From Candidatus Omnitrophota bacterium (GTDB taxonomy: Bacteria > Omnitrophota > Gorgyraeia > Gygaellales > Profunditerraquicolaceae): a stretch of DNA of 36,241 nt. The stretch covers positions 1 through 36,241 of the forward strand of contig JALOQJ010000010.1 of assembly GCA_025453445.1 (NCBI GenBank). Reading direction: 5' to 3'. Below the pieces are notes generated by a model, which saw only the letters and a program-made list of their open reading frames with translations, was not told the DNA's origin and did no database searches. A program made the position numbers and the translations under genes. Below, in pieces: positions 2,883 through 33,741 of this stretch. Numbering within the stretch: position 1 is the stretch's first letter; every line of letters begins with the position of its first letter.

Positions 2883-3986
2883 TTAAAATGTTGTCCTGTT
2901 TCTGGCGATATTTGCCAGTATCCCCAGCGAAATAAATGTTATCATGATCGAAGATCCGCCGTAACTCATCAGCGGCAATGGGACTCCTACTACCGGTGCT
3001 AAGCCTAAATTCATGGCAATGTTTACAAAAATCTGTATACCCAGCATTAAGCTTATACCGAAAGCAAGCAGCCGTCCAAAATAATCACCTGTAGCCAAAG
3101 CAATCTTGATCCCCTGCCTGATTAAAATAAAATATAAAAAAAGCAAAAATAAAGCACCCAGAAAACCCCACTCTTCGGCAAAAGTGGCGAAAATAAAATC
3201 GGTATGCGACTCAGGCAAAAAATGCAGCTGGCTCTGCGTGCCGGCAAGCCAGCCTTTACCGAATAACCCTCCTGAACCAATGGCAATCTTGGATTGAATT
3301 ACCGTGTAGCCGGCTCCCAGCGGATCTATATGTGGATTTAAAAATGCCATCAGCCTGTCTTTCTGATAATCCCTTAAAACATGCCAAAATACCGGCAAAA
3401 GAAGAACACCGATGAGAGAAATTGTAATCAGGTATTTTGACCTTACTCCGCCGATATACATAAAAGCCACAAAAATAAAAAGAATAATCAGGCCTGTGCC
3501 TAAATCAGGCTGTTCGATAATCAGGCCTACAGGCAGAGCAATAAAAAACGACGGTAAAATAAACGCGCGGAATATCCCGTATTTGGCTGCGGTATGATGT
3601 ATGCTGCTTGCTGATTTGGCGCTAAAATACCTTGCCAGAAAAATTACCCCGGCTATCTTAGCCAATTCAGACGGCTGAAAATTCAACCATGCTATTCTGA
3701 TCCAGCGTTGGGCGCCGAGGCGCACTAACCCCAGGATAACAACCAAAAACAGTAAAAACAAAGCAAGCCCGTAAAGAAAGTATGTCATATCCCATAGCCT
3801 GCGGTAATTAAAACGCGACATCGCCAGAAAAAATAATACGCCCAAAATAATCCAGAATATCTGGCGTTTATAAATAATTTGCCAGAGCTCGCCTTCTTTC
3901 TGCGAAGTGCTTGAATAAATCGACAAGATCCCCATGCAAGTAATTAAAAGCGCGACTGCCAATATCAACCATGTAGAATTTTTCAA
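2883..3986 (-). CDS. rodA: Lipid II polymerase RodA (SEDS family)
   Basis: RodA is the SEDS glycosyltransferase that polymerises lipid II into glycan strands during side-wall growth, working with the class B PBP MrdA encoded just upstream. The 367-residue protein is almost entirely membrane-spanning (about ten segments) and carries SEDS signatures: LNFQPSELAKI near residue 105, EQPDLGTGLI near 158, FLPESHTDFIFATFAEEWG near 252 and a C-terminal LPLMSYGGSS. The start is a TTG at 3986, chosen because AGGAGGGG lies upstream inside the end of mrdA and the hydrophobic N-terminus follows at once. It is one base from the mrdA stop, so the two are translationally coupled. It differs from FtsW at 25329-26423 by its mre context. 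Confidence 0.95.
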   Translation of the reverse strand: MKNSTWLILAVALLITCMGILSIYSSTSQKEGELWQIIYKRQIFWIILGVLFFLAMSRFNYRRLWDMTYFLYGLALFLLFLVVILGLVRLGAQRWIRIAWLNFQPSELAKIAGVIFLARYFSAKSASSIHHTAAKYGIFRAFILPSFFIALPVGLIIEQPDLGTGLIILFIFVAFMYIGGVRSKYLITISLIGVLLLPVFWHVLRDYQKDRLMAFLNPHIDPLGAGYTVIQSKIAIGSGGLFGKGWLAGTQSQLHFLPESHTDFIFATFAEEWGFLGALFLLFLYFILIRQGIKIALATGDYFGRLLAFGISLMLGIQIFVNIAMNLGLAPVVGVPLPLMSYGGSSIMITFISLGILANIARNRTTF

Positions 3987-3987
3987 T

Positions 3988-5697
3988 TTAAATCAGCCCC
4001 TCCTGCGCCATTGTAAACAGTATTTGTTTAGTCAGAACACAAGCAGCGTAACCTGAACCGCCATATTCCAAGAAAACACAAATTACATATTTGGGGTTCT
4101 TGTAAGGAAAATAGCCGCAAAACCATGCATGAGGTTGGCCGCGGGGAACCTGCACAGTGCCTGTTTTACCGGCAACTGCCACATTTAAATCTGCCAGCAC
4201 ACTAGCTGTCCCTTGAGGATCAGAGACTGTTTTCCTCATCCCCTGCCGGACATAATTTAATGTAGAATCTTTCAAAGGCATCTTCGTAGCTTTTTTGTGG
4301 AATGAAGAAACATCATAATTCTCTATTGTTTGCACTACATAAGGATTTATCAACATACCGTTGTTGGCGAATACCGCGGTCATCCTGGCAACCTGCAACG
4401 GCGTAACCATCAGGTCACCTTGTCCGATAGAAAAATTTGCCGTATCGCCATCATACCAAGTTTGGAACCTAGACATCCTTTTCCAGAGAGGCGATGGCAC
4501 AAACCCTCCTGCCTCATACGGCAGGTCAATAGAAGTAGGCTTATCAAAACCAAACTTCAGCGCATAATCATGAATTGATTGTGCTCCCAATAAAAGCCCG
4601 CTGTGATAGAAAAAAACGTCGCAAGAATGCGCAATCCCACTAACCAAATCCTGCTCTAGATGAGTATTCCAACAGGAAAATTTACGCCTGCCAACCATTA
4701 GGCTTCCAGGGCAGTAAAATGAGGTTAAGGAGTTAATTTTTTTCGTCTCAAGTGCAGCAGATGCCACAACCAGTTTAAATACCGATCCCGGAGGATAAAG
4801 CCCGCTTATAGCACGGTTAATCAGCGGCGCGTCTGAATCAGTGAATATTCGGCCAAGGGATTTTGATTTATTCACAAAAGCCGCAGGGCTAAAATCAGGG
4901 CTATTTGCCATTGCTATTATTTCGCCAGTGTCGGGCTTAAGAATAACTACACTTCCCTTGCGGCCGGAGAGCGCACTTTCAGAAATCTTTTGTATTTTTA
5001 AATCCAGGGTCAACTGCATATTATTACCGTTCTGCGGCGGCCTGAATCCTAAAACACGTACAAATTTACCCTGATGATCCACTTCTACGGAAAGCGCACC
5101 TTCTTTCTCGCGCAGAAAATAATCAAATTTTTCTTCTACTCCGCCAAAACCTACAATATCCCTCGCCTTATACCCATAGTCAGATAACTTAGAAAGGCGC
5201 CAATGGTCAATCTCATTAAGATAACCGAGCACATGAGAAGCAAGGCTGCCATAAGGGTACTTCCTGAGAGGATGCGGCTGCACAACTATCCCCGGAGTAT
5301 TCAATTTAAGCTCCTCTAATGCAATTGCTTTTTTTATTTCGATATTGTTGGCGACGCGCACCGGCAAAAAAGACGCCAAGAAGCCTGCCTTAAATTTTTT
5401 CTTCAGTTCCCCAGTATCACAATCTAATATCCGCGCGACATTAAGCAGAGTCTGCTCCAACTGCCCCTTTTCCTGCGGCATAATCAAAACATCGTAAGTC
5501 AGGTAGTTATCCACGATAATCATGCCATTGCGGTCAAAGATTTTACCGCGTGCTCCCGGCTGCAACAAAAGCCGGATGGAATTTTTGTTGCTTAGCTGGC
5601 GGAACCTGCGGCCCTGAATCACCGAAAGATTAAATACAGCCAAGGCCATTAAAATAAACAAAAAACCTACAATTAAATTTACAATTCTTATTCTCAT
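3988..5697 (-). CDS. mrdA: Penicillin-binding protein 2, elongasome transpeptidase
   Basis: This class B PBP crosslinks peptidoglycan in the elongation complex, on the outer face of the cytoplasmic membrane. The 569-residue sequence has one N-terminal membrane segment (about 7-27), a pedestal region (about 50-220) and the transpeptidase domain. All three active-site motifs are visible: Ser305-x-x-Lys308 in PPGSVFKLV, SCD at 358-360 (the SxD form usual for PBP2) and KTGT at 511-514. The ATG at 5697 lies three bases after the mreD stop. Its order after mreBCD and before rodA is the classic mre arrangement, which separates it from the septal ftsI paralogue at 31624. Confidence 0.95.
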   Translation of the reverse strand: MRIRIVNLIVGFLFILMALAVFNLSVIQGRRFRQLSNKNSIRLLLQPGARGKIFDRNGMIIVDNYLTYDVLIMPQEKGQLEQTLLNVARILDCDTGELKKKFKAGFLASFLPVRVANNIEIKKAIALEELKLNTPGIVVQPHPLRKYPYGSLASHVLGYLNEIDHWRLSKLSDYGYKARDIVGFGGVEEKFDYFLREKEGALSVEVDHQGKFVRVLGFRPPQNGNNMQLTLDLKIQKISESALSGRKGSVVILKPDTGEIIAMANSPDFSPAAFVNKSKSLGRIFTDSDAPLINRAISGLYPPGSVFKLVVASAALETKKINSLTSFYCPGSLMVGRRKFSCWNTHLEQDLVSGIAHSCDVFFYHSGLLLGAQSIHDYALKFGFDKPTSIDLPYEAGGFVPSPLWKRMSRFQTWYDGDTANFSIGQGDLMVTPLQVARMTAVFANNGMLINPYVVQTIENYDVSSFHKKATKMPLKDSTLNYVRQGMRKTVSDPQGTASVLADLNVAVAGKTGTVQVPRGQPHAWFCGYFPYKNPKYVICVFLEYGGSGYAACVLTKQILFTMAQEGLI

Positions 5698-5700
5698 CTT

Positions 5701-6177
5701 TTAAAACGGTTGGTTATCTTCAAAAGCCGGACAAATAAACCTTAAAATCAGAAGTGATACAATCGCGGTATAAAACGGCTCCAGGATAAGTACTTTAAAA
5801 AAAATCCCCGCTGAAACAGGAATATCTGATATCATTTTAACTGCTGCGCCGTTTAACCCTGCCAGAAAAAAGATGAATCCGGCACGGATAAAATCATTAT
5901 CCAGCGAAATTTTTCTGCCCAACTGAATAGTTAAAAAACCCCAGATAGGGAATAAAAGCGAGTTTAGCCCGAAATTATGAAAACCTAAAATATCCTTATA
6001 CACACCGATAAAAATACTAAACCCTATTGCCGCTACAGGGCTGAAAAATAAACCAGCTATCACTACACAAATAAGCAATAAATCAGGCTTAACCCAGAAT
6101 AAACGAAAATAATTCAGGATGGTTGCTTGCAATAGACCCAGGATAAGTATTAAGACAAGTAAAAATATTTTTTTCAC
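5701..6177 (-). CDS. mreD: Rod-shape protein MreD
   Basis: MreD is a small integral membrane subunit of the elongation complex. The 158-residue protein is hydrophobic throughout, with about five membrane segments and a basic N-terminus (MKKIFLLVLILILGLL). FRLFWVKPDLLLICVV near residues 26-42 resembles the family's conserved PDLLL region. It begins with GTG at 6177, and this codon overlaps the mreC stop as GTGA, a strong coupling signature. Sequence identity in this family is low, so the call rests mainly on hydropathy, size and position between mreC and mrdA. Confidence 0.9.
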   Translation of the reverse strand: MKKIFLLVLILILGLLQATILNYFRLFWVKPDLLLICVVIAGLFFSPVAAIGFSIFIGVYKDILGFHNFGLNSLLFPIWGFLTIQLGRKISLDNDFIRAGFIFFLAGLNGAAVKMISDIPVSAGIFFKVLILEPFYTAIVSLLILRFICPAFEDNQPF

Positions 6178-6947
6178 TGGACGATAATTAATACTTCTTC
6201 TGTATTGGATAAGTTAACTGCGGGTTTTATTACTGCGTATTTGCTCAAACCGGAAAATTCTTCCTCTATGCCAACCACTGTGCCGATAACCAGGCCTTTA
6301 GGATAAGCTAAAGTCAAGCCGGAAGTAATAATTTTATCGCCTGTATTGATATCCGCATCCTTAGGTAAATATTTCATAATCAACGAGTTGCCTAAGGTGC
6401 CACAAATAAGCCCTTCCTGACGGCTGCGCTGGCTTAAACCTGATACGCTTAAATTGGGATCATTAAGCAGCATAATCTTACTGGTAGTTGAGCCACTTTC
6501 AATGACGCGGCCCAATAAACCTTCATAACCAATAACAACACAGCCCGCCCTAATACCATGATAGCTGCCTTTACTTATAATAATGATAGACGACCAGTTG
6601 TCCGGGTCGCGGGCAATTACCTTGGCAGCAATAACTTTATGGGGAGATTCTTTTTTTAATGCGAGCAGCTCTTTCAGGCGGGCATTTTCCAGTTTGGCTT
6701 CCTCAAAGGTATTTAATCTTTGTTGTAAAATGCCTAAATCATTTTTTAGGCGGTCATACTGGATAAAATTACGATGATAAAAAACTATTGCCCTGACTTC
6801 TCTCCCAATCAGGCTCAAAAACGTCAGGGGAAATTTTAAGGTATTTATTACTGTTGGCCGCAGGGAAGGGATAAGGCCGGAAAGAAAAAAAACAAAAAGG
6901 ACCGTGGCAAGAACAACAATTAAATTTCTTTTATTAAGATTAAGCAC
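6174..6947 (-). CDS. mreC: Rod-shape protein MreC
   Basis: MreC is the bitopic scaffold linking cytoplasmic MreB to the periplasmic wall synthases. The 257-residue sequence shows a membrane segment (about 8-27), a coiled coil (about 62-95) and the C-terminal double beta-barrel region, recognisable from ARDPDNWSSIIIISKG near 112-127 and SGLTLAYPKGLVIGTV near 209. The start is GTG at 6947, 21 bases after the mreB stop. The stop overlaps the mreD start. Length is normal for the family. Confidence 0.93.
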   Translation of the reverse strand: MLNLNKRNLIVVLATVLFVFFLSGLIPSLRPTVINTLKFPLTFLSLIGREVRAIVFYHRNFIQYDRLKNDLGILQQRLNTFEEAKLENARLKELLALKKESPHKVIAAKVIARDPDNWSSIIIISKGSYHGIRAGCVVIGYEGLLGRVIESGSTTSKIMLLNDPNLSVSGLSQRSRQEGLICGTLGNSLIMKYLPKDADINTGDKIITSGLTLAYPKGLVIGTVVGIEEEFSGLSKYAVIKPAVNLSNTEEVLIIVQ

Positions 6948-6968: not shown

Positions 6969-8042
6969 CTAAGCATGCATTTCAGACTTAATCGGGACAG
7001 TGACTTTTTTCAGGTAATGAATCTCGTTTAAAACTATACCTGTGCCGTTAGCCACGGCGGTCATTGGATCTTCGGCGATATGCACCGGCAGGCCTGTTTC
7101 TTCAGCGATTAATTTATCCAAACCTCTCAGCAGCGAACCGCCGCCTGCCATTACAATGCCGTGCTCAATGAGATCCGCGGATAATTCCGGCGGAGTCCGC
7201 TCTAATGATATCTTGGTAGATTCCAATATCGCGCGCATAGGTTCCTGCAATGCTTCGCGCACTTCTTCAGAAGTAATAGTTACGGTTTTAGGCAAGCCTG
7301 CAACTAAATCCCGCCCCTTTACTTCCAAAGTCATTTCCTCTTCTAATGGATAAGCTGAGCCGATTTTAATTTTTATATCTTCGGCAGTACGTTCGCCAAT
7401 CATCAAGTTATAGGTTTTCTTTAAATATTCAATTATAGCGTCATCCATCTCATCGCCGCCAATACGGATAGAACGCGAAAAAACAATTCCTGCCAGAGAG
7501 ATAACAGCAATCTCTGTGGTGCCGCCGCCGATATCAATAATCATATTGCCGATGGGATCCTGTATAGGCAAGCCTACGCCGATTGCCGCAGCTACCGGTT
7601 CCTCAATTAAAAAAACCTCCCGTGCGCCGGCGCGCTCTGCAGAATCTTTTACCGCGCGTTTTTCCACTTCGGTGATTCCGGAAGGAATGGCAATAACAAT
7701 CCGCGGCCGGACTAAGACCCTGCGGTGATGGACTTTCTTAATAAAATATCTTAACATTGCTTCGGTAATTTCAAAATCAGCAATAACCCCGTCTTTCATC
7801 GGCCTGATGGCAACAATATTGCCGGGTGTGCGACCAAGCATACGTTTTGCTTCTTCTCCTACTGCTAAGACATGGGATGTGCCGCGTTCGATTGCCACAA
7901 CTGATGGTTCGCAAAGCACCACCCCCTCACCCTTAACATAAACAAGGGTAGTTGCCGTGCCTAAATCAATACCCATATCATTAGAAAATAAACCAAGGAC
8001 ATAATTAATTAATTTTTTGGCTATTTCACCTAATTTTGCCAT
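6969..8042 (-). CDS. mreB: Actin-like rod-shape protein MreB
   Basis: MreB forms membrane-associated filaments that guide side-wall synthesis. The 357-residue protein has canonical actin-fold nucleotide motifs: phosphate 1 GIDLGTATT (residues 24-32), phosphate 2 [10 protein letters not shown] near 168 and the adenosine motif [11 protein letters not shown] near 298. An N-terminal stretch (residues 1-20) is extended and amphipathic, as expected for membrane contact. The ATG at 8042 has an AAGGAGA Shine-Dalgarno sequence and a consensus promoter upstream, so mreB heads the unit mreB-mreC-mreD-mrdA-rodA. Its intact motifs contrast with the divergent FtsA in the same window. Confidence 0.98.
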
Positions 8043-15768: not shown

Positions 15769-15831
15769 GCTATCAGCTATCAGCTATCAGCAAAAAGCTG
15801 AAGGCTGAATGCTGAGAGCTGAAAGCTTAAA
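15769..15831 (-). repeat. Two-part heptanucleotide array between mtnP and ileS
   Basis: Nine heptamers in one register on the plus strand: three GCTATCA units, a GCAAAAA, then GCTGAAG, GCTGAAT, GCTGAGA, GCTGAAA and GCTTAAA, the last holding the mtnP stop. The total of 63 bp equals the array at 2820-2882, and the two-orientation design is the same. In RNA the halves can pair (15 of 19 positions) around a UUUUU loop. The array replaces the usual leader of ileS. Confidence 0.9.
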
Positions 15832-17519: not shown

Positions 17520-18218
17520 TTAGCCCCCGAAGATTGCCCTGCCCAATCTTATCATGTTTGCGCCTTCTTCCAGCGCTATTTCAAAATCATCAGTCATGCC
17601 CATGGACAAAAATCCTAAATTCGAAATCCTAAATCCGAAATCATTACAAATTTTGTCTCTTAACTCCCTTAATTGCCTAAAATACGGACGTGATTTTTGC
17701 GGATTATCCACGATTGGCGCAATCGTCATTAAGCCTAATAAATTTATATTTTTTAATTTGGCTATTTCTTTTATAACTTCAATTACTTCATCGGGTTTTA
17801 AGCCAAATTTAGTTGCCTCAGGCGAAGTTTTCACTTCCAGCAGAATATCCTGAATTTTATTAATCCGGCTGGCTTGTTTATCGATTTCCTGCGCTAAGCG
17901 CAAGCTGTCTACCGAATGGATTAAATCAAATATGTGTACCGCGTCTTTTACCTTATTGGTCTGTAAATGCCCAACTAAATGCCACCTGACAGCTGAAAGC
18001 TGACAGCTGAAAGCTGACAGCTGATTATATTTAGAAAGAGCTTCCTGCACCCTATTTTCGCCTATATCGGTAATGCCTGCGGCAATAGCCTCTTCTATAT
18101 CCTCAGGCCGCCTGTTCTTAGTAACACAAATAAGGATTATCTCCTCTGACTTAAGCTTATTTTTAGCGCAAACAGAGGCAATACGGTCTTTTACCTTTAA
18201 TATATTATCCCCAAGCAT
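17520..18218 (-). CDS. yggS: YggS/PLPBP-family pyridoxal phosphate homeostasis protein
   Basis: Members bind pyridoxal phosphate without known catalysis and influence vitamin B6 and amino acid balance. The 232-residue protein shows LICVTKNRRPEDI near 29-41 (Lys binds PLP), GITDIGENRVQEAL near 48-61, WHLVGHLQTNK near 79-89, GLMTIAP near 154 and LSMGMTDDFEIALEEGANMIRLGRAIFG at the C-terminus. Two inserts come from heptamer repeats: QLSAFSCQLSA near 66-76 and DFGFRISNLGF near 193-203. Both are in frame and between conserved blocks. A promoter precedes the ATG at 18218, but no Shine-Dalgarno sequence does. In most dcw clusters ftsZ lies between ftsA and this gene; here only 46 bases do. Confidence 0.93.
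   Translation of the reverse strand: MLGDNILKVKDRIASVCAKNKLKSEEIILICVTKNRRPEDIEEAIAAGITDIGENRVQEALSKYNQLSAFSCQLSAVRWHLVGHLQTNKVKDAVHIFDLIHSVDSLRLAQEIDKQASRINKIQDILLEVKTSPEATKFGLKPDEVIEVIKEIAKLKNINLLGLMTIAPIVDNPQKSRPYFRQLRELRDKICNDFGFRISNLGFLSMGMTDDFEIALEEGANMIRLGRAIFGG
17611..17645 (-). repeat. Heptamer module inside yggS (AATCCTA family)
   Basis: Plus-strand heptamers AATCCTA, AATTCGA, AATCCTA, AATCCGA and a degraded AATCATT. On the coding strand they read as GATTTCG/GATTTAG units and encode DFGFRISNLGF. This is a third sequence family with the same 7-bp period. Confidence 0.8.
17991..18025 (-). repeat. Five-unit heptamer module inside yggS (AGCTGAA family)
   Basis: AGCTGAA, AGCTGAC, AGCTGAA, AGCTGAC, AGCTGAT on the plus strand, with a degenerate ACCTGAC just before. 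The coding strand reads NQLSAFSCQLSA, the same peptide theme as in aroA and murF. Confidence 0.9.
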
Positions 18219-18236
18219 TATTTTAATAATCTATAT

Positions 18237-18264
18237 ATTATACACGAGAAAAATGGAGGGTCAA
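18237..18264 (-). promoter_or_regulatory. Promoter for the yggS-proC-mtnP block
   Basis: On the minus strand TTGACC (18259-18264), a 16-base spacer and a perfect TATAAT (18237-18242) directly follow the ftsA stop. The expected start of transcription is only about 12 bases before the yggS ATG. Confidence 0.7.
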
Positions 18265-19527
18265 TTAAAAGTACTCTTGATACACTTCCTTGAATTTATT
18301 AATAATCTTAAAAACCGGATGATGCATACAAGCGCTACTGGAGATCATTTTAGGCTGTTCATCGTTTAAAATCCGGTAAATCATCCCCAGGCAGGTCAGG
18401 TAAGAAAGGTATTTCTGCCCCCGGGAATCGCTGTTATTATGCACCAGAGAAAGCATCCCTGGATTGGTTACTTTACCAAGTTTTACGGAAATCCCTAAGT
18501 TATTTTCCAGCATTTCCAAAAAGCCTTCCAGATAAACTGCTCTTCCGCAGACAACGAAATTATTTATTTCGGCAAGGCCTACATGGGCTTCAATTTTCTT
18601 TTTTATTGCCTCGCAGATTAATTTTGCCTTGGCAGTAACTGTTTCTATCACGAAACTCTGTTTTATAGGCTTGTAGATATTATCTTTTTTTACCAATATT
18701 TCTTTATCACCGCGGCTGCGGCTGGAATCCTGAATACTGGCATACGACCTTTTGACATCTTCTGCCAATTCCCAAGGAATCTTTAATGCAGCAGACAATT
18801 CCTGAGTCAAATCATCCCCTCCGAGGGGCAGGACTTCTGCCTTTTTTAACATTCCGTCGCGAAAAATCAGTATTTCAGTTATATCACTGCCGATATCGCA
18901 GAGCACATGCACGCCGCTTTTGATATTTTCGTTAAATACAGCATAGCTTGTGGAGGTAGCGGAAAAAAATAAATCTTTTATCTCATAACCTGCCTGATTT
19001 GTCACTCGGGTCAGCGTCTGAATAGAAGATAACTTGGCGCAAACAAGGTATAAATCCACTTCCAGCCTGTGGCTATACAACCCCAGAGGATTAGAAATAC
19101 TATGCTGCGAATCAATGGCATAATTAAAAGGTACCTGGTCGATAATTTCCTCTTCCAGGCTCGAACCTAATATGCGTGCCTGCTCGCTCACTTTTTCTAT
19201 ATCAGACAGAGTAATCACTTTATTGCCGCGCTCGGCAAGCGGAATAATCGCATGGCTATGCTTAGTAGAAATATCCTGGCCGGAAAAATCAGTATAAATA
19301 TATTTAATATTGATTCCGGATTTCAATTTAAGATTTTTCATTACTGCCTCGATACAGGCGATCAAATCTATGGAATCGGTAATCGAACCGCGCTTTACAC
19401 CCTTAGCAGGCATCATCTCAAAAAATATCTCGGCAATATTCTGCTTGTTAATCCTTGCCGCTACTGCAGCAACCTTACTGGAACTGATATCCATTGCGCA
19501 GATATAATTATTATTCAGTATCCTCAA
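18265..19527 (-). CDS. ftsA: Divergent cell division protein FtsA
   Basis: FtsA is the actin-like protein that normally ties FtsZ to the membrane. The 420-residue sequence ends in an amphipathic helix (PVFKIINKFKEVYQEYF), the usual FtsA membrane-targeting tail, and has the expected 1A-1C-2A-2B length. The nucleotide motifs are weak: phosphate 1 reads AMDISSSKV rather than DIGTSK, phosphate 2 reads CDIGSDITEILIF, and the adenosine motif reads VVCGRAVYLEGF, lacking the GGG(A/S) seen in MreB here. The TTG start at 19527 is supported by GGAGGT seven bases upstream, formed by the last codons and stop of ftsQ. No ftsZ follows. PilM is a possible alternative, but the tail and context favour FtsA. 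Confidence 0.88.
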   Translation of the reverse strand: MRILNNNYICAMDISSSKVAAVAARINKQNIAEIFFEMMPAKGVKRGSITDSIDLIACIEAVMKNLKLKSGINIKYIYTDFSGQDISTKHSHAIIPLAERGNKVITLSDIEKVSEQARILGSSLEEEIIDQVPFNYAIDSQHSISNPLGLYSHRLEVDLYLVCAKLSSIQTLTRVTNQAGYEIKDLFFSATSTSYAVFNENIKSGVHVLCDIGSDITEILIFRDGMLKKAEVLPLGGDDLTQELSAALKIPWELAEDVKRSYASIQDSSRSRGDKEILVKKDNIYKPIKQSFVIETVTAKAKLICEAIKKKIEAHVGLAEINNFVVCGRAVYLEGFLEMLENNLGISVKLGKVTNPGMLSLVHNNSDSRGQKYLSYLTCLGMIYRILNDEQPKMISSSACMHHPVFKIINKFKEVYQEYF

Positions 19528-19532
19528 AGTAG

Positions 19533-20339
19533 TTACCTCCTCTGGCTGCTCTCGCTATTATCAAGCTTGATTACCGGCTCTTTAAAACGCAAATCGATAT
19601 ATTTTATATTAAACTGCTCATTATTTACCTGTGACAAAAGGCTGGCTAAAATATTAATCTTATCCCGGATATTATCCGGCCCGATTTTCACTTCCAGCAG
19701 GCCGATGCCTGCAGGATTGTTACCAGCGGTATTATTGGCTGTTGTTGACAGACCAAAAGATAAAAAAGCCGTTGTATTGCCGAGGCTCGCAACATCAATT
19801 TTTTTAAGCTGATAAACTCTGAATGCCCTGTTATTTTTTATCCCACGTGCTATTTCCAACGCAGTTGTTAACTCTTTAATATTATAGCGTGATCCAGGCT
19901 TCGGGCCAAAGATTTTTGTGTCCAGGCCGGTGATCACCGGCAGGCCAACGTCAGGCGCAAGCTGCGGGGCTTCAAATAACACAGCGTCGCTATCCACGTA
20001 AAATGAACGGTAAAGCCTAACATAAGCCAGTGGTATGCGTTTTACAAAATCTATGTACAGCCGATCCGGAAAAACCCTGATTATCCTGATTTTTTTGTAA
20101 TCCGGGAATTTTTGCAATAAAAACTGTGCTTCCTTATCCAGGTCAATTGCGAAGATGGATTCATTTTTCAGGTAAGACAAACTATCCGCATTTTTCTCGC
20201 TAAAAATTATCTCTTTTACCTTAAAATAATCCGCCTGAGCAGTAATCTTAAATATATACCGTGCAGCAGCAAGCAGCAATAGTATTATGACAACAGGAAT
20301 TACTAACTTAAAGGGAAATTTTGGCTTCTGCTTTTTCAT
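19533..20339 (-). CDS. ftsQ: Cell division protein FtsQ (POTRA domain)
   Basis: FtsQ is the bitopic protein that recruits and regulates the septal synthases. The roughly 268-residue sequence has a basic cytoplasmic tail (MKKQKPKFPFK), one membrane helix (about 12-30) and a POTRA-like start, YFKVKEIIFSEKN. A later block, KKIRIIRVFPDRLYIDFVKRIPLAYVRL, matches the family pattern of a strand followed by (V/I)xExxP-like text. A low-complexity STTANNTAGNN stretch near residue 215 may be a loop insertion. I chose the ATG at 20339; a TTG two codons earlier also opens the frame. It overlaps ddl, and its last codons supply the ribosome site of ftsA. Confidence 0.88.
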   Translation of the reverse strand: MKKQKPKFPFKLVIPVVIILLLLAAARYIFKITAQADYFKVKEIIFSEKNADSLSYLKNESIFAIDLDKEAQFLLQKFPDYKKIRIIRVFPDRLYIDFVKRIPLAYVRLYRSFYVDSDAVLFEAPQLAPDVGLPVITGLDTKIFGPKPGSRYNIKELTTALEIARGIKNNRAFRVYQLKKIDVASLGNTTAFLSFGLSTTANNTAGNNPAGIGLLEVKIGPDNIRDKINILASLLSQVNNEQFNIKYIDLRFKEPVIKLDNSESSQRR

Positions 20340-21273
20340 ATGCAAGTTGAATCAATTTAAAACACAATTGAGAAAACTCTATGCCTGCAACTTTAGCTGC
20401 TTTCGGCAGAAGGCTGGTGGGTGTAAAACCGGGAATCGAATTAAGTTCCAGTATATACGGGGTATTATCACGGCTTAAGATAATATCTACCCGCGAACAT
20501 CCGAAACAACCTAAAAGCTTATGTGTCTTAAGCGCCGCAGACTGCACTAGCTTAGCTATATTTTCTTCAAGAACAGCAGGCACAATGTATTCTGTAAAGC
20601 CCGCCTGGTATTTTGCCTCATAATCAAAAAATCTTTTTTTCGGGACAATCTCTATTACCGGTAATGCTTCATCTTCCAATATGCCAACGGTAAGCTCCCT
20701 GCCCCTGATATATTCCTCAGCAACCACCTTGTCGTCGAATTTAAACGCCAGCTCCAGAGCCGGCTTTATCTCCTCTTCTTTCTCAGGAATAGACAAGCCA
20801 ATGCTGGAGCCATGTGTCGCAGGCTTAATCACAAGCGGCAGGCCCAAACAGGCGCTGAGGCTTAAATTATCATTCTGCGAAACCTTATCGATTATTATAT
20901 ATTTGGGAACCGCTAAATTATAAACTTCCAATACTTTACGAGAAGCAATTTTATCCATTGACAGTTTACTGGATAAAACTCCGGATCCGGTATAAGGAAT
21001 ATTTACATTTTCCAGAATTTCCTGGATGGCGCCATCTTCTCCAAAACGGCCGTGTAAAGCAAGAAAAGCGCAATCTATCTTCTCTGATTTTATCAGGTTT
21101 ATATTATCATCGGCCTTATCTGATGTAATATCTATACCGATTACATCAAGGCCTGCCTGCTTTAATGACTCATATACGGCTTTACCGGATTTTAGAGAAA
21201 CTTCTCTTTCTGAGGAGGACCCTCCCATCAAAACACCGATTTTTCCGTAATCAGCCTGTTTACTTACCGCCAT
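20308..21273 (-). CDS. ddl: D-alanine--D-alanine ligase
   Basis: Ddl makes the D-Ala-D-Ala dipeptide that MurF adds. The 321-residue ATP-grasp enzyme shows IGVLMGGSSSEREVSLKSG near 12-30, FLALHGRFGEDGAIQ near 72-86, TGSGVLSSKLSMDKIASR near 96, KPATHGSSIGLS near 151-162, EEYIRGRELTVGIL near 185 and LELNSIPGFTPTSLLPK near 275. These cover the serine loop and the Mg/ATP residues. The ATG at 21273 overlaps the end of murB by ten bases. Nothing suggests D-Ala-D-Lac specificity, but I cannot exclude it from sequence alone. Confidence 0.96.
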   Translation of the reverse strand: MAVSKQADYGKIGVLMGGSSSEREVSLKSGKAVYESLKQAGLDVIGIDITSDKADDNINLIKSEKIDCAFLALHGRFGEDGAIQEILENVNIPYTGSGVLSSKLSMDKIASRKVLEVYNLAVPKYIIIDKVSQNDNLSLSACLGLPLVIKPATHGSSIGLSIPEKEEEIKPALELAFKFDDKVVAEEYIRGRELTVGILEDEALPVIEIVPKKRFFDYEAKYQAGFTEYIVPAVLEENIAKLVQSAALKTHKLLGCFGCSRVDIILSRDNTPYILELNSIPGFTPTSLLPKAAKVAGIEFSQLCFKLIQLAYEKAEAKISL

Positions 21274-22151
21274 ATTTGTATCTCTGGTTTTAAATCTATA
21301 TTAAATTTATTTTTTACTTTTCTTTTTGCTAAAGCTATTAATTTCATAACATCGCCTGAGCTTGCCTTTCCCCTATTGATGATAAAATTTGCATGCTTTA
21401 AGGAAATAGAGGCCCTGCCGATCGAACTACCTTTTAACCCACAGGAATCTATTAATTTACCGGCAGAAAACCCTACGGGATTCTTAAAAATACAGCCTGC
21501 CGATGGATGGGCTGAATCCTGCGAATTTTTACGGTACGATAAATATTCCCTGATTTTTCCGGCAGCCTCTTTTTTATTGCCTTTATTAAATTTTATCCTT
21601 GCGCTTAAAATTATACACCCGGATAAATTAGATTTTCGATAACTAAACTTCAGCTGCTTACCGGTAAGCACTTTAATATTACTATTATAATCCATAATTG
21701 TCACTTTTTCCACTAAATCTCCGAAATTGCGCTGATTTTTTCCTGAGCCGGCATTCATAACCAATGCCCCTCCGACGGTACCGGGTATTCCGGACAACAA
21801 CTCATATCCAGAAAGAGCTCTCTTTGCTGCCTCGCTTATTAATTTCTGCAGAGGACAACCTGCACCTGTTTCGGCAATATTTCCTTTAAAGGTTAACTTT
21901 GTAAAACTTGGCGCAGTAAGATGCAGCACTGCGCCGATTAATCCTCTGTCCGAAACCAATACATTACTGCCCGCGCCGATGACCAAAAACGGTACATGAT
22001 ATTTTTTTAATAAACTAAGCGCTAATTTTAAATCATCGATATCTTCCGGCTCGATAAAATAACCACACGGCCCTCCGATCTTAAAAGTCGTATGCTTATT
22101 TAACCGTTCGTTAAAGCTTATTTTACCCTTTAATTTTTTCCACCAGCTCAT
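21264..22151 (-). CDS. murB: UDP-N-acetylenolpyruvoylglucosamine reductase
   Basis: MurB reduces the enolpyruvyl group to give UDP-MurNAc, using FAD and NADPH in the cytoplasm. The 295-residue enzyme has the FAD-binding segment VIGAGSNVLVSDRG near 57-70, the SGIPGTVGGALVMNAG motif near 120-135, SYRKS with Arg172 and a C-terminal EIQIW with Glu290. It resembles type II MurB, lacking the extra E. coli loop. The proton-donor position, serine in most enzymes (SAG-S-xFKNP), is Cys220 here in PSAGCIFKNP. The ATG at 22151 overlaps the murC end by 29 bases. Confidence 0.95.
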   Translation of the reverse strand: MSWWKKLKGKISFNERLNKHTTFKIGGPCGYFIEPEDIDDLKLALSLLKKYHVPFLVIGAGSNVLVSDRGLIGAVLHLTAPSFTKLTFKGNIAETGAGCPLQKLISEAAKRALSGYELLSGIPGTVGGALVMNAGSGKNQRNFGDLVEKVTIMDYNSNIKVLTGKQLKFSYRKSNLSGCIILSARIKFNKGNKKEAAGKIREYLSYRKNSQDSAHPSAGCIFKNPVGFSAGKLIDSCGLKGSSIGRASISLKHANFIINRGKASSGDVMKLIALAKRKVKNKFNIDLKPEIQIWR

Positions 22152-23484
22152 CGCAAATTCTAGTAATGTCTCCGGCGCCTAAAGTTGCTACCAGGTCGCC
22201 CGTCTTTATTATTTCCAAAATATAACTGGCTAAGTTTTCTTTAACAACGAAAGTTGTATCCTTGTGCTGCGCTTTTATTTTTTCGGCAAGCTGACTACCG
22301 GAAATTCCTTTTATCGGAGGCTCGCTGGCAGCATAAATATCGGTAATAATAAGCACATCCGCCAAATCAAAACAACTGCTGAATTCATCCATTAATAATT
22401 TTGTGCGCGTATAGCGGTGCGGCTGAAAAACAACGATTATCCTCTTGGCCCCGATGCGCTTAATCGCCGATAGAGTAGCCTTAATCTCCGTCGGATGATG
22501 CGCATAGTCATCGATAATTAAATAATCATTATTTTTTAATTTTATTTCAATGCGCCGGCCAGCCCCTTTATAGCCAGCCAAGGCATTCCTGATAAATTTT
22601 AAATCAATGCCTAACTCCATACCCAGAGCAATTACAGCCAGGGCATTAGAAATATTATGCATCCCTCCTAAAGCAAGATAAAACTTTCCTAAAGATTTCC
22701 CTTGATGCATACAATCAAATTCAGATGACAAACCGTTAATTGCGATATTTTCCGGAAAAACATCTGCGCCCGCACGTAAACCAAACGATACCCTCCTGCC
22801 TTTATAACCATCCATTATTTTTATCAGGCTGGAATCATCAGCACAGTAAAAAATACATCCGTCAGGAACCGTCTTATTGATAAACTTCTCAAAAGCATTG
22901 ATTTCACTCTGAAAATCACCGTAATAATCAAGGTGTTCGTGGTCGATATTAGTGATAATCGAATATTTCGGCCGGTAAAATAAAAACGACCCATCAGACT
23001 CATCTGCTTCAGCAACGAATAATTCGCCCTTTCCCCAGCAAGCGTTATTTCCGGTGTTCTTTAAAATACCTCCGATAGCAACACTAGGATTTAGGCCCGC
23101 CTCAATTAAAAGATATGAGACCAACGAAGTAGTAGTAGTTTTACCATGGCTGCCGGCTACGGTAATTACATCCTTATCCCGCATTAATTCAGCCAGGGCC
23201 TCTGCCCGTTTAATTAAAGGGATTTTTTGCTTTTTTGCCTCTATTATTTCCGGATTGCTCTCCTTTATCGCCGATGAATAAACCACTAAATCTGCTCCGC
23301 GGATATTTTCTGCATTATGGCCGATAAATATATTTGCGCCAGCTGCCCTGAGTTCTTCGGTGGCAAAGCTCTCTTTTAAATCAGACCCGCTTACTTTCCT
23401 GCCACAGGATAACAAAATCCGTGCGATCCCGCTCATCCCAATGCCGCCGATACCGATAAAATGCATATGTTCAACTGATTTCAT
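22123..23484 (-). CDS. murC: UDP-N-acetylmuramate--L-alanine ligase
   Basis: MurC adds the first amino acid, L-Ala, to UDP-MurNAc. The roughly 453-residue protein begins with a nucleotide-sugar site FIGIGGIGMSGIAR (about 9-22), then the ATP loop AGSHGKTTTTS (about 110-120), ITNIDHEHLDYYG near 190, and IDDYAHHPTEIKATLSA near 330, all standard for MurC. I chose the ATG at 23484, whose first bases overlap the stop of the metallopeptidase as ATGA; a TTG eight codons upstream (23508) is less likely. It is coupled to that peptidase on one side and to murB on the other. Confidence 0.96.
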   Translation of the reverse strand: MKSVEHMHFIGIGGIGMSGIARILLSCGRKVSGSDLKESFATEELRAAGANIFIGHNAENIRGADLVVYSSAIKESNPEIIEAKKQKIPLIKRAEALAELMRDKDVITVAGSHGKTTTTSLVSYLLIEAGLNPSVAIGGILKNTGNNACWGKGELFVAEADESDGSFLFYRPKYSIITNIDHEHLDYYGDFQSEINAFEKFINKTVPDGCIFYCADDSSLIKIMDGYKGRRVSFGLRAGADVFPENIAINGLSSEFDCMHQGKSLGKFYLALGGMHNISNALAVIALGMELGIDLKFIRNALAGYKGAGRRIEIKLKNNDYLIIDDYAHHPTEIKATLSAIKRIGAKRIIVVFQPHRYTRTKLLMDEFSSCFDLADVLIITDIYAASEPPIKGISGSQLAEKIKAQHKDTTFVVKENLASYILEIIKTGDLVATLGAGDITRICDELVEKIKG

Positions 23485-24320
23485 TGTTGTAATAAATATT
23501 TCTCCCAAGCCTCTCCTAATGACTGCGTATCTGCAAAAGGATAGGTTGTACTAAGCGCTTTCCGGAAATCTTTTAATTCCTTTAAGCGCTGGCAAAAAAT
23601 AAGAAAACTTTCCCTGCCGAATTCCTTGATTAGATAATCCACTAAACTTAATGATTCTAAATAAAACAGGCTCACCTCTGCATCATCTTTCATTAAGCTC
23701 GGGGCAGCCGTAGATAATGCTTTAAAACTTATGAATTTATTCTCACGCAATGCCTGCTTCAGCTGCCAGCCAGCCTGCCGGAGCGCTGAATTCTCCTGAT
23801 AAATAGCCACGCCTTCTTCCAGCCATAAAGGCACAGCAGGATTAGTTAACCCTACTGTTTCACGAAAAATAATATGCCCCATCTCATGCGGCAGCACTGT
23901 TTCAAAAAAACCCTTTGCATAGGGATAACTATAAATTGTTTTCTCTCCTACCTGCGCATACCCTGCTGACCATACAGGCTGATGCGTAGATTCGATATAA
24001 TCCTTGCTGTCATTATAAATGTAGATTTTAGCGCGGTTATCCCAAAGCCAGAAATCATAACGCCTTAACCCGAGATTTTCAGCAATTTTATCGTAATAAC
24101 TCTCGGCATAATTGAGCAGCTGACGGATAAAATCTTCTTTTGCTTCCTTGTAAAAAACAATAAAATGCGTGCTTTTTTCGGTATTCCATTTATCTGTAGC
24201 AGAGGCAGAACAAACTTGCCAACAGCTTAAAAGTACAAAAAATAGAGTGGCACTTTTCTTAAACACAAGCTGCCAGCCTTTCTGCTGCATCCGGTATAGA
24301 AAGGCCATAATAAGCCCCAC
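23481..24320 (-). CDS. Secreted or lipid-anchored MA-type zinc metallopeptidase
   Basis: The protein (279 residues from GTG at 24320; ATGs at 24308 and 24290 give shorter forms) carries LPHEMGHIIFRE, an HExxH zinc site, with downstream WLEEGVAIYQE supplying a likely third zinc ligand in the manner of gluzincins (peptidase MA-like). The N-terminus is a signal sequence with FFVLLSCWQVCSASA, which could be cut by signal peptidase I after ASA or act as a poor lipobox at LLSC. The upstream part (KSTHFIVFYKE, YDKIAENLG) is typical of MA-like peptidases that read as periplasmic. It overlaps murG and joins murC by ATGA, so it is a true member of the dcw operon. Its substrate is unknown. Confidence 0.85.
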   Translation of the reverse strand: MGLIMAFLYRMQQKGWQLVFKKSATLFFVLLSCWQVCSASATDKWNTEKSTHFIVFYKEAKEDFIRQLLNYAESYYDKIAENLGLRRYDFWLWDNRAKIYIYNDSKDYIESTHQPVWSAGYAQVGEKTIYSYPYAKGFFETVLPHEMGHIIFRETVGLTNPAVPLWLEEGVAIYQENSALRQAGWQLKQALRENKFISFKALSTAAPSLMKDDAEVSLFYLESLSLVDYLIKEFGRESFLIFCQRLKELKDFRKALSTTYPFADTQSLGEAWEKYLLQQ

Positions 24321-25332
24321 GCATCTTACTCAGGCTAACCTGATTGTCAATTAACGGAAGTACCATTCGCTTCAGCTGTCCCAAGCTTAATTCTTCATCT
24401 TTGATAATCAACGCAGCGCCTGCTCTTTCTAACACCAGGGCATTGTTCAATTGATGCTGGTAAGCATACGGATAGGGGATAATAACCGCGGGAAGTGCAA
24501 AAAACATGATCTCAGCAATTGTAGTTGCGCCTGCCCTTGAGATAATCAGATCCGCGGCGCTGTAAGCATATTCCATCGGTTGCAAAAAATCGAATAATTT
24601 ATATTCTATACCCAAACCTGCGTAACTTTCTTTAAGGCGGCTGTAATCTTTACTGCCGCAAAGATGAATCACCTGTAATTTATTTTTTTGCGGAATAAAC
24701 CCTATGAACTTCACAAACTCTTCATTAATCCGGCTGCAGCCTTGGCTGCCGCCAGCAACTAAAATTGTAAACTTATCCTCTTTTAGGGCAAGGTAAGCAC
24801 AAGCAATTTTTTTATCAATCCTAACCAATGACTTTCGGATGGGATCTCCGGTCAATACGATCTTTTTCTCCTTGCCTTTAAAATATCCGACTGTCTCTTT
24901 AAACGAAACGGCAATTTTATCGCTGAAATAGGCAAGAAATTTGTTAGCCTTGCCCGGTAAAACATTTTGTTCATGTATTACAGTCGTAGTGCGAAAAAAC
25001 CAGGCCAATAAAATAACCGGCAAAGAAGCCAGGCTGCCGAACCCTATTGCAACATCCGGACGGAAATTAATAAAAATAAGAATAACCTGAAAAAAAGACT
25101 TTATCATCTGCCAGATACTTTTTAAGCCGGCGAAACTAAAATTTAATTTTATCGGAGTAACCGTGATATATTTTACCGGACAAGGCAGAACACCCTCTGC
25201 TTTTAAAATATTTTTTTTCGGCAAAACTAAAAGTACCTGCGCATCATTATTGCCTGCTTTTAATGCCTCAATAAAACTGATTGCAGGGAATATATGCCCG
25301 CCGCTTGAACCGGATGCAACCAAAACTCTCAC
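24259..25332 (-). CDS. murG: Lipid II synthase MurG
   Basis: MurG transfers GlcNAc from UDP-GlcNAc to lipid I on the inner face of the membrane. The 357-residue GT-B enzyme starts VASGSSGGHIFPAISFIEAL, the glycine loop, with SS in place of the more common GT. It continues with GFGSLASLPVILLAW near 97, HEQNVLPGKANKFLA near 118, VAGGSQGCSRINE near 192 and DLIISRAGATTIAEIMFFALPAVIIPYP near 259, whose glutamate and arginine contact the sugar nucleotide. GTG start at 25332 forms GTGA with the ftsW stop, and GGAGA lies six bases before it. Confidence 0.96.
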   Translation of the reverse strand: MRVLVASGSSGGHIFPAISFIEALKAGNNDAQVLLVLPKKNILKAEGVLPCPVKYITVTPIKLNFSFAGLKSIWQMIKSFFQVILIFINFRPDVAIGFGSLASLPVILLAWFFRTTTVIHEQNVLPGKANKFLAYFSDKIAVSFKETVGYFKGKEKKIVLTGDPIRKSLVRIDKKIACAYLALKEDKFTILVAGGSQGCSRINEEFVKFIGFIPQKNKLQVIHLCGSKDYSRLKESYAGLGIEYKLFDFLQPMEYAYSAADLIISRAGATTIAEIMFFALPAVIIPYPYAYQHQLNNALVLERAGAALIIKDEELSLGQLKRMVLPLIDNQVSLSKMRGAYYGLSIPDAAERLAACV

Positions 25333-26423
25333 GGATATTCTCCTGTACGCGCAATATTTAAAAGTATGCCCACACTCACCATATCAAAAATAAAAGACGA
25401 ACCGCCATAACTGATAAAAGGTAATGGCAGGCCTTTTGTCGGCAGGAGACCGCAGGAAACTCCAATATTTACCATTGCCCTGAAACAAATCATTGTAATC
25501 AACCCCAAGCCAAGAAAATAGCCGAATTTATCCTGTGTATTTTTTATAATTTTAATTGCCTGCCGGATAAAAACAACAAATAAAATAATCACGCTAAGAG
25601 TACCAATCAGGCCAAGCTCTTCTCCGATAATTGAAAAAATAAAGTCCGTGTGCGCCGCCGGCAAATAAAATAATTTCTGCCGGGAATGCCCTAAGCCTAC
25701 GCCAAACCATCCGCCTGAACCCAAAGCAACCTGTGACTGGATAATCTGAAAACCGCTCCCCTTTGGATCAAGCCAAGGGTTTAAAAAAGCTAAAATACGC
25801 GCCCTGCGGTAGGGAACGCTGAAAATTAAAAGATACAAAAACGGCAGGCTGGATAAAAATACTCCCAATAAATAGGAACCACGCACCCCAGCAACAAAAA
25901 GCATGGTAAAAACTACTACGCCTAAAGATAAAGTCGTCCCCAAATCAGGCTGTAAGAGGACCAGCAGCGCTGTAGCGCCCAGGATACATAAAGGCGGAGC
26001 AAACCCTTTCCAAAAAGATTTAATTAGGCTACCTTTACGGCTGATAAAATCCGCAACATAAATGATTACTGCCAGGACCGCCAGTTCCGAAGGCTGAAAA
26101 CTCATGAATTTGAACCTAAACCATCTGCGCGCTCCGGAGACTTCCCTGCCGATACCGGGAATTAAAACTAAAACTAATAATAACAATGCAATAATCAACA
26201 GCGGCTTGGCGTAGGAGCTAAGTTTGCGGTAATCTATTACCATCATCAGGTAGGCACACAAAGCTCCGATAAGCAGGAAAGAAATATGGCGTTTTAAAAA
26301 AAATAAACTATCCTTATAGCGTTCCCAGGCGTAAATGCTGGAAGCGCTGTAAATCATCACTATGCCTATACAAATTAAAATAAAGGTAACGGCAAAAAGG
26401 TTAATACGGATATTCCTGAGCAT
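25329..26423 (-). CDS. ftsW: Septal lipid II polymerase FtsW (SEDS family)
   Basis: FtsW is the SEDS glycosyltransferase of the divisome and works with FtsI. The 364-residue protein has about ten membrane segments and SEDS motifs: FMSFQPSELAVLAVI near 108, LQPDLGTTLSLG near 160, LGHSRQKLFYLPAAHTDFIFSIIGEELG near 247 and LPLPFISYGGSSF near 335. It starts one base after murD and ends coupled to murG, the usual order. SRQKLFYLPAAHTDFIF and the dcw context separate it from RodA at 2883. Confidence 0.96.
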   Translation of the reverse strand: MLRNIRINLFAVTFILICIGIVMIYSASSIYAWERYKDSLFFLKRHISFLLIGALCAYLMMVIDYRKLSSYAKPLLIIALLLLVLVLIPGIGREVSGARRWFRFKFMSFQPSELAVLAVIIYVADFISRKGSLIKSFWKGFAPPLCILGATALLVLLQPDLGTTLSLGVVVFTMLFVAGVRGSYLLGVFLSSLPFLYLLIFSVPYRRARILAFLNPWLDPKGSGFQIIQSQVALGSGGWFGVGLGHSRQKLFYLPAAHTDFIFSIIGEELGLIGTLSVIILFVVFIRQAIKIIKNTQDKFGYFLGLGLITMICFRAMVNIGVSCGLLPTKGLPLPFISYGGSSFIFDMVSVGILLNIARTGEYP

Positions 26424-31623: not shown

Positions 31624-33327
31624 TTATTCATCCTGCGTAAGCACCAATGGCTCTTTACTCTTCAAATACCTCAAAGCCTCTAAAGCAACATTTTTAAATA
31701 CCGGCGCAGACACCACTCCGCCAAAATAATAAGGATGCGGCTCATCCACTACCACTGCAATGGCAAGCTTAGGATCCTCTGCCGGCGCAAACCCGATAAA
31801 AGAAGCAACAAATTTATTATGTGAATATGCACCGTTGTCTTCTAACTTCTGGGCAGTACCGGTTTTCCCTGCAAAACTCAGGCCCTCAACCTTAGCCATT
31901 CTACCCGTTCCCTCTTCTATAACGCCAATCAGTATTTTTCTAATCCGTGCTGCTGTATCCAAAGAGATTACTTTATTCTTCATCTGAGGAGAAAATGTTT
32001 TAATCGACTCAGCATACCTATCCCTGATTTCTTTTACCACATAAGGCTTCATCAGCTGCCCGCCATTGGCAATCGCAGAAATTGCGCTGACTAATTGCAG
32101 TGCTGTCACTCCTACTTCCTGGCCCATTGGCACTGCCGCAATTGACGTCTTTGACCAAAAACGAGGCTCTTTGATCGAACCGCTGATTTCGCCGGGCAAA
32201 TCCACTCCTGACTTTCCTCCAAAACCAAATAACCTGATATAACGATAAACTTCATTCGCCCCCAACAACTGAGCTATCTTACAGGTGCCGATATTGCTTG
32301 ACTGTTCTATAACCCCGGTAAAAGTAAGCCAACCGTGCGGTTGATGATCATGCAATATATGGTTTGCCACTCTATAAGAGCCGTTTTCACAGAAAAATCT
32401 ATCTTCTTCGGATACTTTTTTTTCATCCAGCGCTGCTGATGCAGTAACGATTTTAAACACAGATCCCGGCTCGAATAAGTCGGTAATTGCCCGGTCGCGC
32501 ATAATTTCTTTTGTGGCATCCCGGTATTCATTTAAGTCAAAACTGGGACGGTTGGCCAAAGCAAGTATCGCGCCGGTATGCGGGTCCATCACAACAATAC
32601 TAGCGCCCTTAGCGTGATTGGATTTAAACGCCTTATCCAGTTCTCTTTCTGCGATATACTGGATAACTTCATCAATAGTCAAAATTAGATCGTAGCCGTC
32701 CTTAGGCAAAACCATCCTATCCCAAAGGTCCAATTTTTTCTGGCGGGCATCACGTAAAAATAAAGCCCAGCCCGGCTCGCCTTTTAAGTATTTATCATAA
32801 TACATTTCAAGGCCGTCTAAGCCCGCATTATCCAGCCCGGCAAAACCAAGAATATGGCTGGCTAAATAACCATTAGGATAACAACGCTTACTCTCTTTAA
32901 CCATACCAATACCTTTAATATTCAATGCTTTTACAGCGTCGGCCTGCTGAGGAGTGATTTTTCTTGCCAGCCAGATAAAAGATTTTTTCCGCGACAACCT
33001 GTCTTTCAGATAAGCATGATCAAGCTGCAGCGCAAAACTAAGTTTTCTGATAATTATTTCTTTATCTTTATCGGATATTTCGTTGGGAGAGGCATAAACT
33101 GAATCTACAGCGATATTAAATGCCTGGGGCCGGAAATTAGAATCATAGATAGTACCTCTGCGCGGCTCTAATTCTACATACAAATTGTGTTGTTTATTGG
33201 CAATATTAGCGAGATAGTTAGAGCGGAAAAACTGGATAAAAATCAGGCGGGCAGCGCAGAATAAAAAGAAAAGGACGAATAATAGAGATACCGCGCCAAA
33301 TCTACGGTAATAATTACGGATATACAC
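31624..33327 (-). CDS. ftsI: Septal penicillin-binding protein FtsI (PBP3)
   Basis: FtsI crosslinks septal peptidoglycan. The 567-residue class B PBP has one N-terminal membrane helix (about 11-33), the pedestal start ELEPRRGTIYDSN near 52-64, and transpeptidase motifs Ser289-x-x-Lys292 (EPGSVFKIV), SSN at 343-345 and KTGT at 488-491. There is no C-terminal PASTA domain, which argues against the Firmicutes SpoVD/PBP2x type. The start is a GTG at 33327, since an in-frame stop lies a short way upstream; no Shine-Dalgarno sequence is visible. It follows the ftsL-like gene after 39 bases and precedes murE, the canonical order. Confidence 0.95.
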   Translation of the reverse strand: MYIRNYYRRFGAVSLLFVLFFLFCAARLIFIQFFRSNYLANIANKQHNLYVELEPRRGTIYDSNFRPQAFNIAVDSVYASPNEISDKDKEIIIRKLSFALQLDHAYLKDRLSRKKSFIWLARKITPQQADAVKALNIKGIGMVKESKRCYPNGYLASHILGFAGLDNAGLDGLEMYYDKYLKGEPGWALFLRDARQKKLDLWDRMVLPKDGYDLILTIDEVIQYIAERELDKAFKSNHAKGASIVVMDPHTGAILALANRPSFDLNEYRDATKEIMRDRAITDLFEPGSVFKIVTASAALDEKKVSEEDRFFCENGSYRVANHILHDHQPHGWLTFTGVIEQSSNIGTCKIAQLLGANEVYRYIRLFGFGGKSGVDLPGEISGSIKEPRFWSKTSIAAVPMGQEVGVTALQLVSAISAIANGGQLMKPYVVKEIRDRYAESIKTFSPQMKNKVISLDTAARIRKILIGVIEEGTGRMAKVEGLSFAGKTGTAQKLEDNGAYSHNKFVASFIGFAPAEDPKLAIAVVVDEPHPYYFGGVVSAPVFKNVALEALRYLKSKEPLVLTQDE

Positions 33328-33366: not shown

Positions 33367-33741
33367 CTACGGGTTGATTGTCCTTGCTTCAGCCTGCCTC
33401 TTGATCCCGAAAAGGCGTGAGAATAAATTTTCTTTTTTATATTTATTCCGCGCTAATTTTAAATTTTCCAGCGGCTGCGCCAGCCTTACTAACCTGTAGG
33501 TATCGGGCATCTGATAGTCACGGGCCTGAAAAACTTTATTTCCGATACGGATCAGCGAGGCATTCTTTTCTATATTATATCTCAAGAAAGTATTCTTATC
33601 AAGCAAATCCAAGAAAGATACTTCTTTCTTTTGGCCGACATAAGCCAGCCTAAAGACTTCTGTCTGCTGATAGACATAAAGCAGGCAGCATAAAGTAGCA
33701 ACAGTTGTGACGGACAAAAATTTAGAGAGCCTCATTTTCAT
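33367..33741 (-). CDS. ftsL: FtsL-like small bitopic division protein
   Basis: The call rests on position (rsmH, then this gene, then ftsI) and topology: 124 residues with a short basic tail, one membrane helix (about 8-24, SVTTVATLCCLLYVYQQ) and a soluble outer part with helix-forming text (QKKEVSFLDLLDKNTFLRYNIEK) suited to the FtsL-FtsB coiled coil. FtsL is highly divergent, and no sequence motif proves identity. The C-terminal 35 residues are basic and longer than in many FtsL proteins. Its ATG overlaps the rsmH stop as ATGA. Confidence 0.75.
   Translation of the reverse strand: MKMRLSKFLSVTTVATLCCLLYVYQQTEVFRLAYVGQKKEVSFLDLLDKNTFLRYNIEKNASLIRIGNKVFQARDYQMPDTYRLVRLAQPLENLKLARNKYKKENLFSRLFGIKRQAEARTINP

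Follow-up and report, generated by a model that had tools for sequence, protein, structure and literature searches.

In most bacteria the division ring is formed by FtsZ, whose usual partner is FtsA, and FtsZ ranks among the most conserved of bacterial proteins. The 36,241 nucleotides of contig JALOQJ010000010.1 (assembly GCA_025453445.1) analyzed here, hereafter the window, carry an ftsA gene, and the question raised by this locus is whether the Omnitrophota bacterium it belongs to possesses ftsZ at all and, if not, what its FtsA may be doing. All the genes of the ftsA region lie on the minus strand, in the order mraZ-mraW-(ftsL-like)-ftsI-murE-murF-mraY-murD-ftsW-murG-(peptidase MA)-murC-murB-ddl-ftsQ-ftsA (Table 1). 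An earlier note, made from the sequence alone, had described ftsZ as missing from its usual place between ftsA and yggS and the gap as occupied by a promoter. Both points were borne out: the gap contains no ftsZ, and the promoter holds as a consensus match, sigma-70-like and identical to the consensus at 11 of 12 positions (18264-18237, minus strand). The tubulin signature, also reported as lacking, was found in no frame of the window. The same note regarded the dcw cluster as otherwise complete and canonical in order, a description that stands with two corrections, namely that a peptidase-like gene separates murG from murC and that murF is split.

Table 1. Features of the division, wall and elongation gene clusters in the window.
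Feature	Coordinates	Strand	Remarks
mreC, mreD, mrdA, rodA (separate elongasome set)	2883..6947	-	
mreB	6969..8042	-	PF06723, 2.4e-151
yggS, next gene after ftsA	17520..18218	-	Ala_racemase_N
ftsA-yggS junction, expected ftsZ place	18219..18264	-	46 bp; bears TTGACC-16-TATAAT promoter-like site
ftsA	18265..19527	-	420 aa; 1A/1C/2A/2B layout, 2B kept; Pfam FtsA and SHS2_FTSA; C-terminal amphipathic helix, end KIINKFKEVYQEYF
ftsQ	19533..20345	-	PF03799 above cut-off
ddl	20308..21273	-	
murB	21264..22151	-	
murC	22123..23508	-	
murG	24259..25332	-	
ftsW, divisome SEDS glycosyltransferase	25329..26423	-	position in dcw cluster
ftsI, divisome penicillin-binding protein	31624..33327	-	position in dcw cluster
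short ORF at ftsL position	33367..33741	-	no Pfam match; name by position only
mraZ, first gene of dcw cluster	34644..35081	-	

The peptidase-MA-like gene (23481-24320) is shared with many relatives of the same class. The murF gene consists of two overlapping minus-strand frames (29741-30175 and 28791-29987), split by a perfect 32-bp tandem duplication with heptamer-like repeats (29918-29981) that reflects either a true frameshift or an assembly error. Tandem repeats of 7 bases, of the types AGCTGAA, AGCTGAC and AAATCCG, are dispersed over intergenic gaps and coding sequence, with arrays at 2820-2883, 8664-8697, 15766-15831, 17610-17642, 17986-18024 and 29911-29981, two of which are located within yggS. 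A coiled-coil protein is encoded at 9553-10434, between murA and rluD and close to the mre operon.

The genome to which the window belongs is, like all those analyzed, an assembly from an uncultured organism (1.29 Mb, 57 contigs, 93% complete). It gave no match to the tubulin/FtsZ model PF00091, nor did any of its 58 nearest relatives (0/58), and neither of the two FtsZ/tubulin models used found an FtsZ in it. The phylum was sampled with 285 Omnitrophota genomes, of which 216 were at least 90% complete and some were single-contig assemblies (G127, G129, G254); here PF00091 matched one genome only, against 13 of the 14 distant controls, which include archaea, while the full-length FtsZ model TIGR00065 scored above its cut-off in none of 126 genomes. 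The sole PF00091 match (genome G238, L010:1012-2295) is a lysine-rich TubZ/FtsZ-like protein whose gene adjoins one for phosphoglycerate mutase; unlinked to division genes, it was rejected as ftsZ. This GTPase is the only tubulin-family protein among the 285 genomes. Searching with E. coli FtsZ (tblastn) retrieved no remnant of the gene, either at the window junction or in relatives, for which the sequence covered amounted to about 0.97 Mb, chiefly around ftsA. The contrast between 0/58 and 1/285 on one side and 13/14 controls on the other exceeds what chance or an assembly gap can produce, and FtsZ is missing from essentially the entire phylum Omnitrophota. It is on the phylum that the case for its loss rests, since single absences in one incomplete genome prove little: FtsK was likewise undetected in the window's own genome. 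The earlier note had left two options open, a displaced ftsZ and a lineage dividing without it; the former is refuted by these searches, and the latter is supported for the whole phylum rather than for the lineage of the window alone.

Two ways of explaining the absence away were weighed. Draft metagenome assemblies, that of the window with its many contigs included, may in principle miss or misplace a gene, but ftsZ is absent from 284 of the 285 genomes, single-contig assemblies among them, and we give an artefact or a plain relocation practically no credence. That a tubulin-family division protein is present, having diverged past recognition by FtsZ models, is somewhat less far-fetched and still improbable. 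Sub-threshold partial matches to TIGR00065 in 12 of 126 genomes, together with the TubZ/FtsZ-like protein of one genome, are what such divergence might leave; these matches are, however, short pieces of at most 15.5 bits, FtsZ is highly conserved and is matched by the models even in the archaea among the distant controls. True loss of FtsZ, moreover, predicts both the shortening of FtsA in ten families and the lack of ZapA and SepF reported below.

The identity of the window FtsA was established from its sequence and its position. The protein matched the Pfam models FtsA (3.4e-16) and SHS2_FTSA (4.6e-15), with PF14450 at 60.2 bits and PF02491 at 56.2 bits, both above cut-off, and its closest PDB sequences and folds are FtsA structures. 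Its AlphaFold model is weak (mean pLDDT 55.6, from a shallow alignment, and not to be read in detail), and the best PDB matches of this model were again FtsA structures, one of them that of T. maritima FtsA in complex with the FtsZ tail. The gene directly follows ftsQ in the dcw cluster; this neighbor and the SHS2_FTSA match ruled out that the protein is a PilM. In the phylum sample, PF02491, which describes the FtsA-specific 1C insert, was present in 251/285 genomes, and a home-made profile built from 45 Omnitrophota FtsA gave E-values of at most 1e-20 in about 260 of them. These two measures replaced a count by PF14450 alone (285/285), rejected because that model matches MreB too. In family f38 (e.g., G238, G242, G243, G282) FtsA was barely recognizable, SHS2 being absent or found at E near 1e-4, as was the case in some other genomes, which suggests that in this family FtsA itself is decaying. 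With no FtsZ in the genome or in the phylum to bind, the window protein is an FtsA by descent and not by FtsZ binding.

Among the 49 ftsA neighborhoods examined (40 fetched and nine named), the order ftsQ-ftsA was kept in nearly all and ftsZ never followed ftsA. The next gene was variable (yggS, proC, pilT and others), and the idea of a substitute gene in the ftsZ slot was rejected, as no candidate (proC, glycine cleavage, ribB, fabG, etc.) was common to the loci. FtsZ-sized ORFs found after ftsA in seven distant families were, like the other genes in this slot, named by eye from their sequence; they are PilT-like ATPases and were also discarded. In these seven families (L042, L045, L056, L061, L063, L075, L076) the PilT-like gene stands next to ftsA or one gene after it, sometimes with a radical-SAM gene coming after it, an arrangement that possibly reflects an old link between division and type IV pili.

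The FtsA proteins themselves were compared in an alignment of 127 distinct Omnitrophota sequences with E. coli FtsA as reference, taking as 2B segment the part aligned with E. coli residues 240-306 and solved FtsA structures as the FtsZ-bearing comparison. The length of this segment was two-peaked, with 0-17 residues in 39 of the 127 sequences, 43 in four and 57-108 in the rest. Most Omnitrophota FtsA, then, keep 2B, including that of the window, whose segment counts 66 residues and may hold the contact residues for the FtsZ tail. The short form was shared by all members sampled from ten families (f12, f17, f19, f22, f24, f35, f40, f45, f47, f51), with nearly constant length within most of them, and in a further family (f14) the segment varied from 43 to 105 residues. 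The shortened proteins are encoded by single open frames with an in-frame deletion and intact flanking motifs, they still match SHS2_FTSA at 1e-12 to 1e-20, and their genes, where neighborhoods were available, are located after ftsQ; the 1C domain, whose main ligand in E. coli is FtsN, is kept. On a tree of murC, ddl, murG and murB covering 44 loci, the deletion required four changes, and f51, which belongs to another class and was not in the tree, adds one; counting strongly supported branches only, two changes remained in the four-gene tree, the support of which was moderate. As judged from these alignments and trees, 2B appears to have been deleted several times independently.

Sequences retaining 2B also differ from the FtsA of FtsZ-bearing bacteria. 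The E. coli, Xenorhabdus poinarii, V. maritimus and S. aureus chains all carry an arginine at E. coli position 300, with a putative role in FtsZ binding; it was found in only 8 of 84 2B-bearing Omnitrophota sequences. Published work locates the site for the FtsZ tail on 2B, close to R286 (PMC9098913), a position that falls inside the deleted stretch, and FtsA protofilaments are built from IIA-IIB contacts, while FtsN binds the cleft between 1A and 1C (PMC7613929). Deletion of 2B with retention of 1C and of the membrane helix would thus abolish both FtsZ binding and the usual filament contact, and what is left would be a membrane adaptor. In many lineages FtsA seems to have lost exactly the part that would bind FtsZ; since most of the proteins keep 2B, FtsA filaments may be in use in some of the phylum.

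The C-terminal helix of the window FtsA (HPVFKIINKFKEVYQEYF) has a hydrophobic moment of 0.53, 2.7 sd above shuffled sequences, the E. coli value being 0.51. The amphipathic C-terminal helix closes with YF in 119 of the 127 Omnitrophota proteins, and most of the remaining eight are truncated at a contig end or by a frame break. Over the last 18 residues, the mean hydrophobic moment lies about 2 sd above shuffles in proteins with and without 2B alike. Given the retention of this helix, the binding of FtsA to the membrane is probably kept.

Other division proteins were sought by profile in 97 Omnitrophota genomes. ZapA and SepF, which the earlier note had proposed to look for, were both found in none (0/97 each), so that the layer of FtsZ-binding proteins is lacking. 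By the same kind of search FtsK was detected in 93/97 genomes, DivIC/FtsB in 87/97 and MreB in 94/97, including all 73 of the best genomes (73/73). The membrane divisome is present with FtsQ, FtsB/DivIC, FtsW, FtsI and FtsK, as are the mur genes and MreB. The divisome has thus kept its membrane and wall-synthesis layer intact and lost its tubulin layer. In the window, mreB belongs to an ordinary mreBCD-mrdA-rodA operon, apart from the ftsI-ftsW pair.

The reading that we favor, with a probability of about 0.75, is that FtsZ was lost long ago while an ordinary Gram-negative membrane divisome was kept, with FtsA serving septal wall synthesis as an adaptor at the membrane. FtsZ would have disappeared early in the phylum together with ZapA and SepF, unless the latter two were never present, and division would have continued by means of FtsQ, FtsB/DivIC, FtsW, FtsI and FtsK, with FtsA still attached. 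No longer a tether for FtsZ, FtsA would have been retained because it contacts the membrane divisome: its C-terminal amphipathic helix would hold it on the inner face of the membrane, and its 1C domain would touch divisome proteins at their cytoplasmic ends; through these contacts FtsA would recruit septal wall synthesis or switch it on. Subdomain 2B, which comprises the FtsZ-tail site and half of the filament interface, would have become dispensable once FtsZ was gone and then have decayed in at least ten families through several separate events. An adaptor function is most likely for FtsA, and constriction would be driven mainly by septal wall synthesis, with FtsW-FtsI the first choice for the source of force; candidates for placing the septum are MreB, FtsK, FtsA filaments where 2B survives, or an unrecognized protein. 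A sharper version of this scheme, in which the divisome is free of any ring and FtsA, released from FtsZ, acts as a pure membrane adaptor from the cytoplasm to FtsQ-FtsB and FtsW-FtsI, in ten families without the subdomain for FtsZ binding and filaments, is put forward tentatively, at somewhat less than even odds.

Two other cytoskeletal solutions compete with the adaptor reading. MreB, with the RodA-MrdA set, could direct division in a Chlamydia-like manner, as the earlier note had surmised, a scheme compatible with an adaptor role of FtsA; almost every genome searched has MreB, and chlamydial MreB with RodZ is described as able to direct division (PMC7029139). We nonetheless judge it unlikely, as two synthase pairs are kept (ftsW-ftsI in the dcw cluster and rodA-mrdA in the mre operon), as in ordinary rods, the FtsQ-FtsB-FtsA arm is retained as well, and MreB showed no sign of specialization on shallow inspection. 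Slightly less probable still is that FtsA took the place of FtsZ, a filament of FtsA, alone or with FtsN, constituting the cytoplasmic division ring. FtsA is homologous to actin and assembles into double filaments (PMC7613929), no other cytoskeletal division protein is left, and the 2B of most Omnitrophota proteins, the window's included, speaks for it too. The ten families that deleted 2B, which contributes half of the contact along the filament, show that a conventional FtsA filament cannot serve the phylum at large.

The parallel drawn in the earlier note with Planctomycetes and Chlamydiae is apt in part: according to Pende 2021 (PMC8178401) these groups lack FtsA too, which Omnitrophota have retained along with the complete membrane divisome. 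Chlamydiota share the absence of FtsZ and the retention of peptidoglycan genes, FtsK, FtsW/FtsI and MreB (PMC12283558 and PMC7029139), but they are also without FtsA and FtsB, in contrast to the ftsQ-adjacent FtsA and the FtsB/DivIC of Omnitrophota. Planctomycetota, likewise FtsZ-less members of the PVC superphylum, have no FtsA, and in several of their orders most genes for wall precursors are gone (PMC12283558); in the Omnitrophota window the set of mur and fts genes is complete and forms a cluster. With the canonical FtsA of E. coli, T. maritima and S. aureus, the nearest solved structures, the Omnitrophota proteins have in common the actin-like layout, the 1C domain and the C-terminal membrane helix, and they differ in the missing FtsZ partner, the rarity of Arg 300 and the deletion of 2B in ten families. 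By analogy, a possible role for an FtsZ-free FtsA may be modeled on PilM, the actin-like adaptor of type IV pili, which has an FtsA-like fold with a 1C domain and binds the cytoplasmic tail of the bitopic PilN (PMC7613929); the Omnitrophota proteins differ from it in being FtsA by sequence and by position.

The absence of FtsZ itself is already on record, but disputed and undeveloped. The legend of Figure 5 in Pende 2021 places Omnitrophica among FtsZ-less groups with Planctomycetes and Chlamydiae, and names only the latter two as FtsA-less (PMC8178401). Rivas-Marin 2016 reports FtsZ in one Omnitrophica-assigned assembly and leaves two others undecided (PMC5147048). Omnitrophota dcw genes are called highly conserved in a 2025 iScience paper (PMC12283558), and a large study of Omnitrophota genomes does not mention fts genes (PMC10066038). 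Neither the retention of FtsA across the phylum nor the 2B deletions were found in the accessible text of the open-licence papers searched. As far as these papers go, what is new is an FtsZ-less division that keeps FtsA across a phylum, with a 2B-less FtsA amenable to testing.

The present result bears on a disagreement among published accounts as to the presence of FtsZ in Omnitrophota. A whole phylum without the tubulin layer and with nearly all else kept implies that the jobs of FtsA and of the septal synthases are separable from that of FtsZ, and the repeated deletion of 2B in FtsA amounts to a natural domain-deletion experiment. If the ring-free divisome proposed above is true, it would offer a living example of an FtsZ-independent function of FtsA and would be intermediate between the ordinary divisome and the division systems of Chlamydiota and Planctomycetota.
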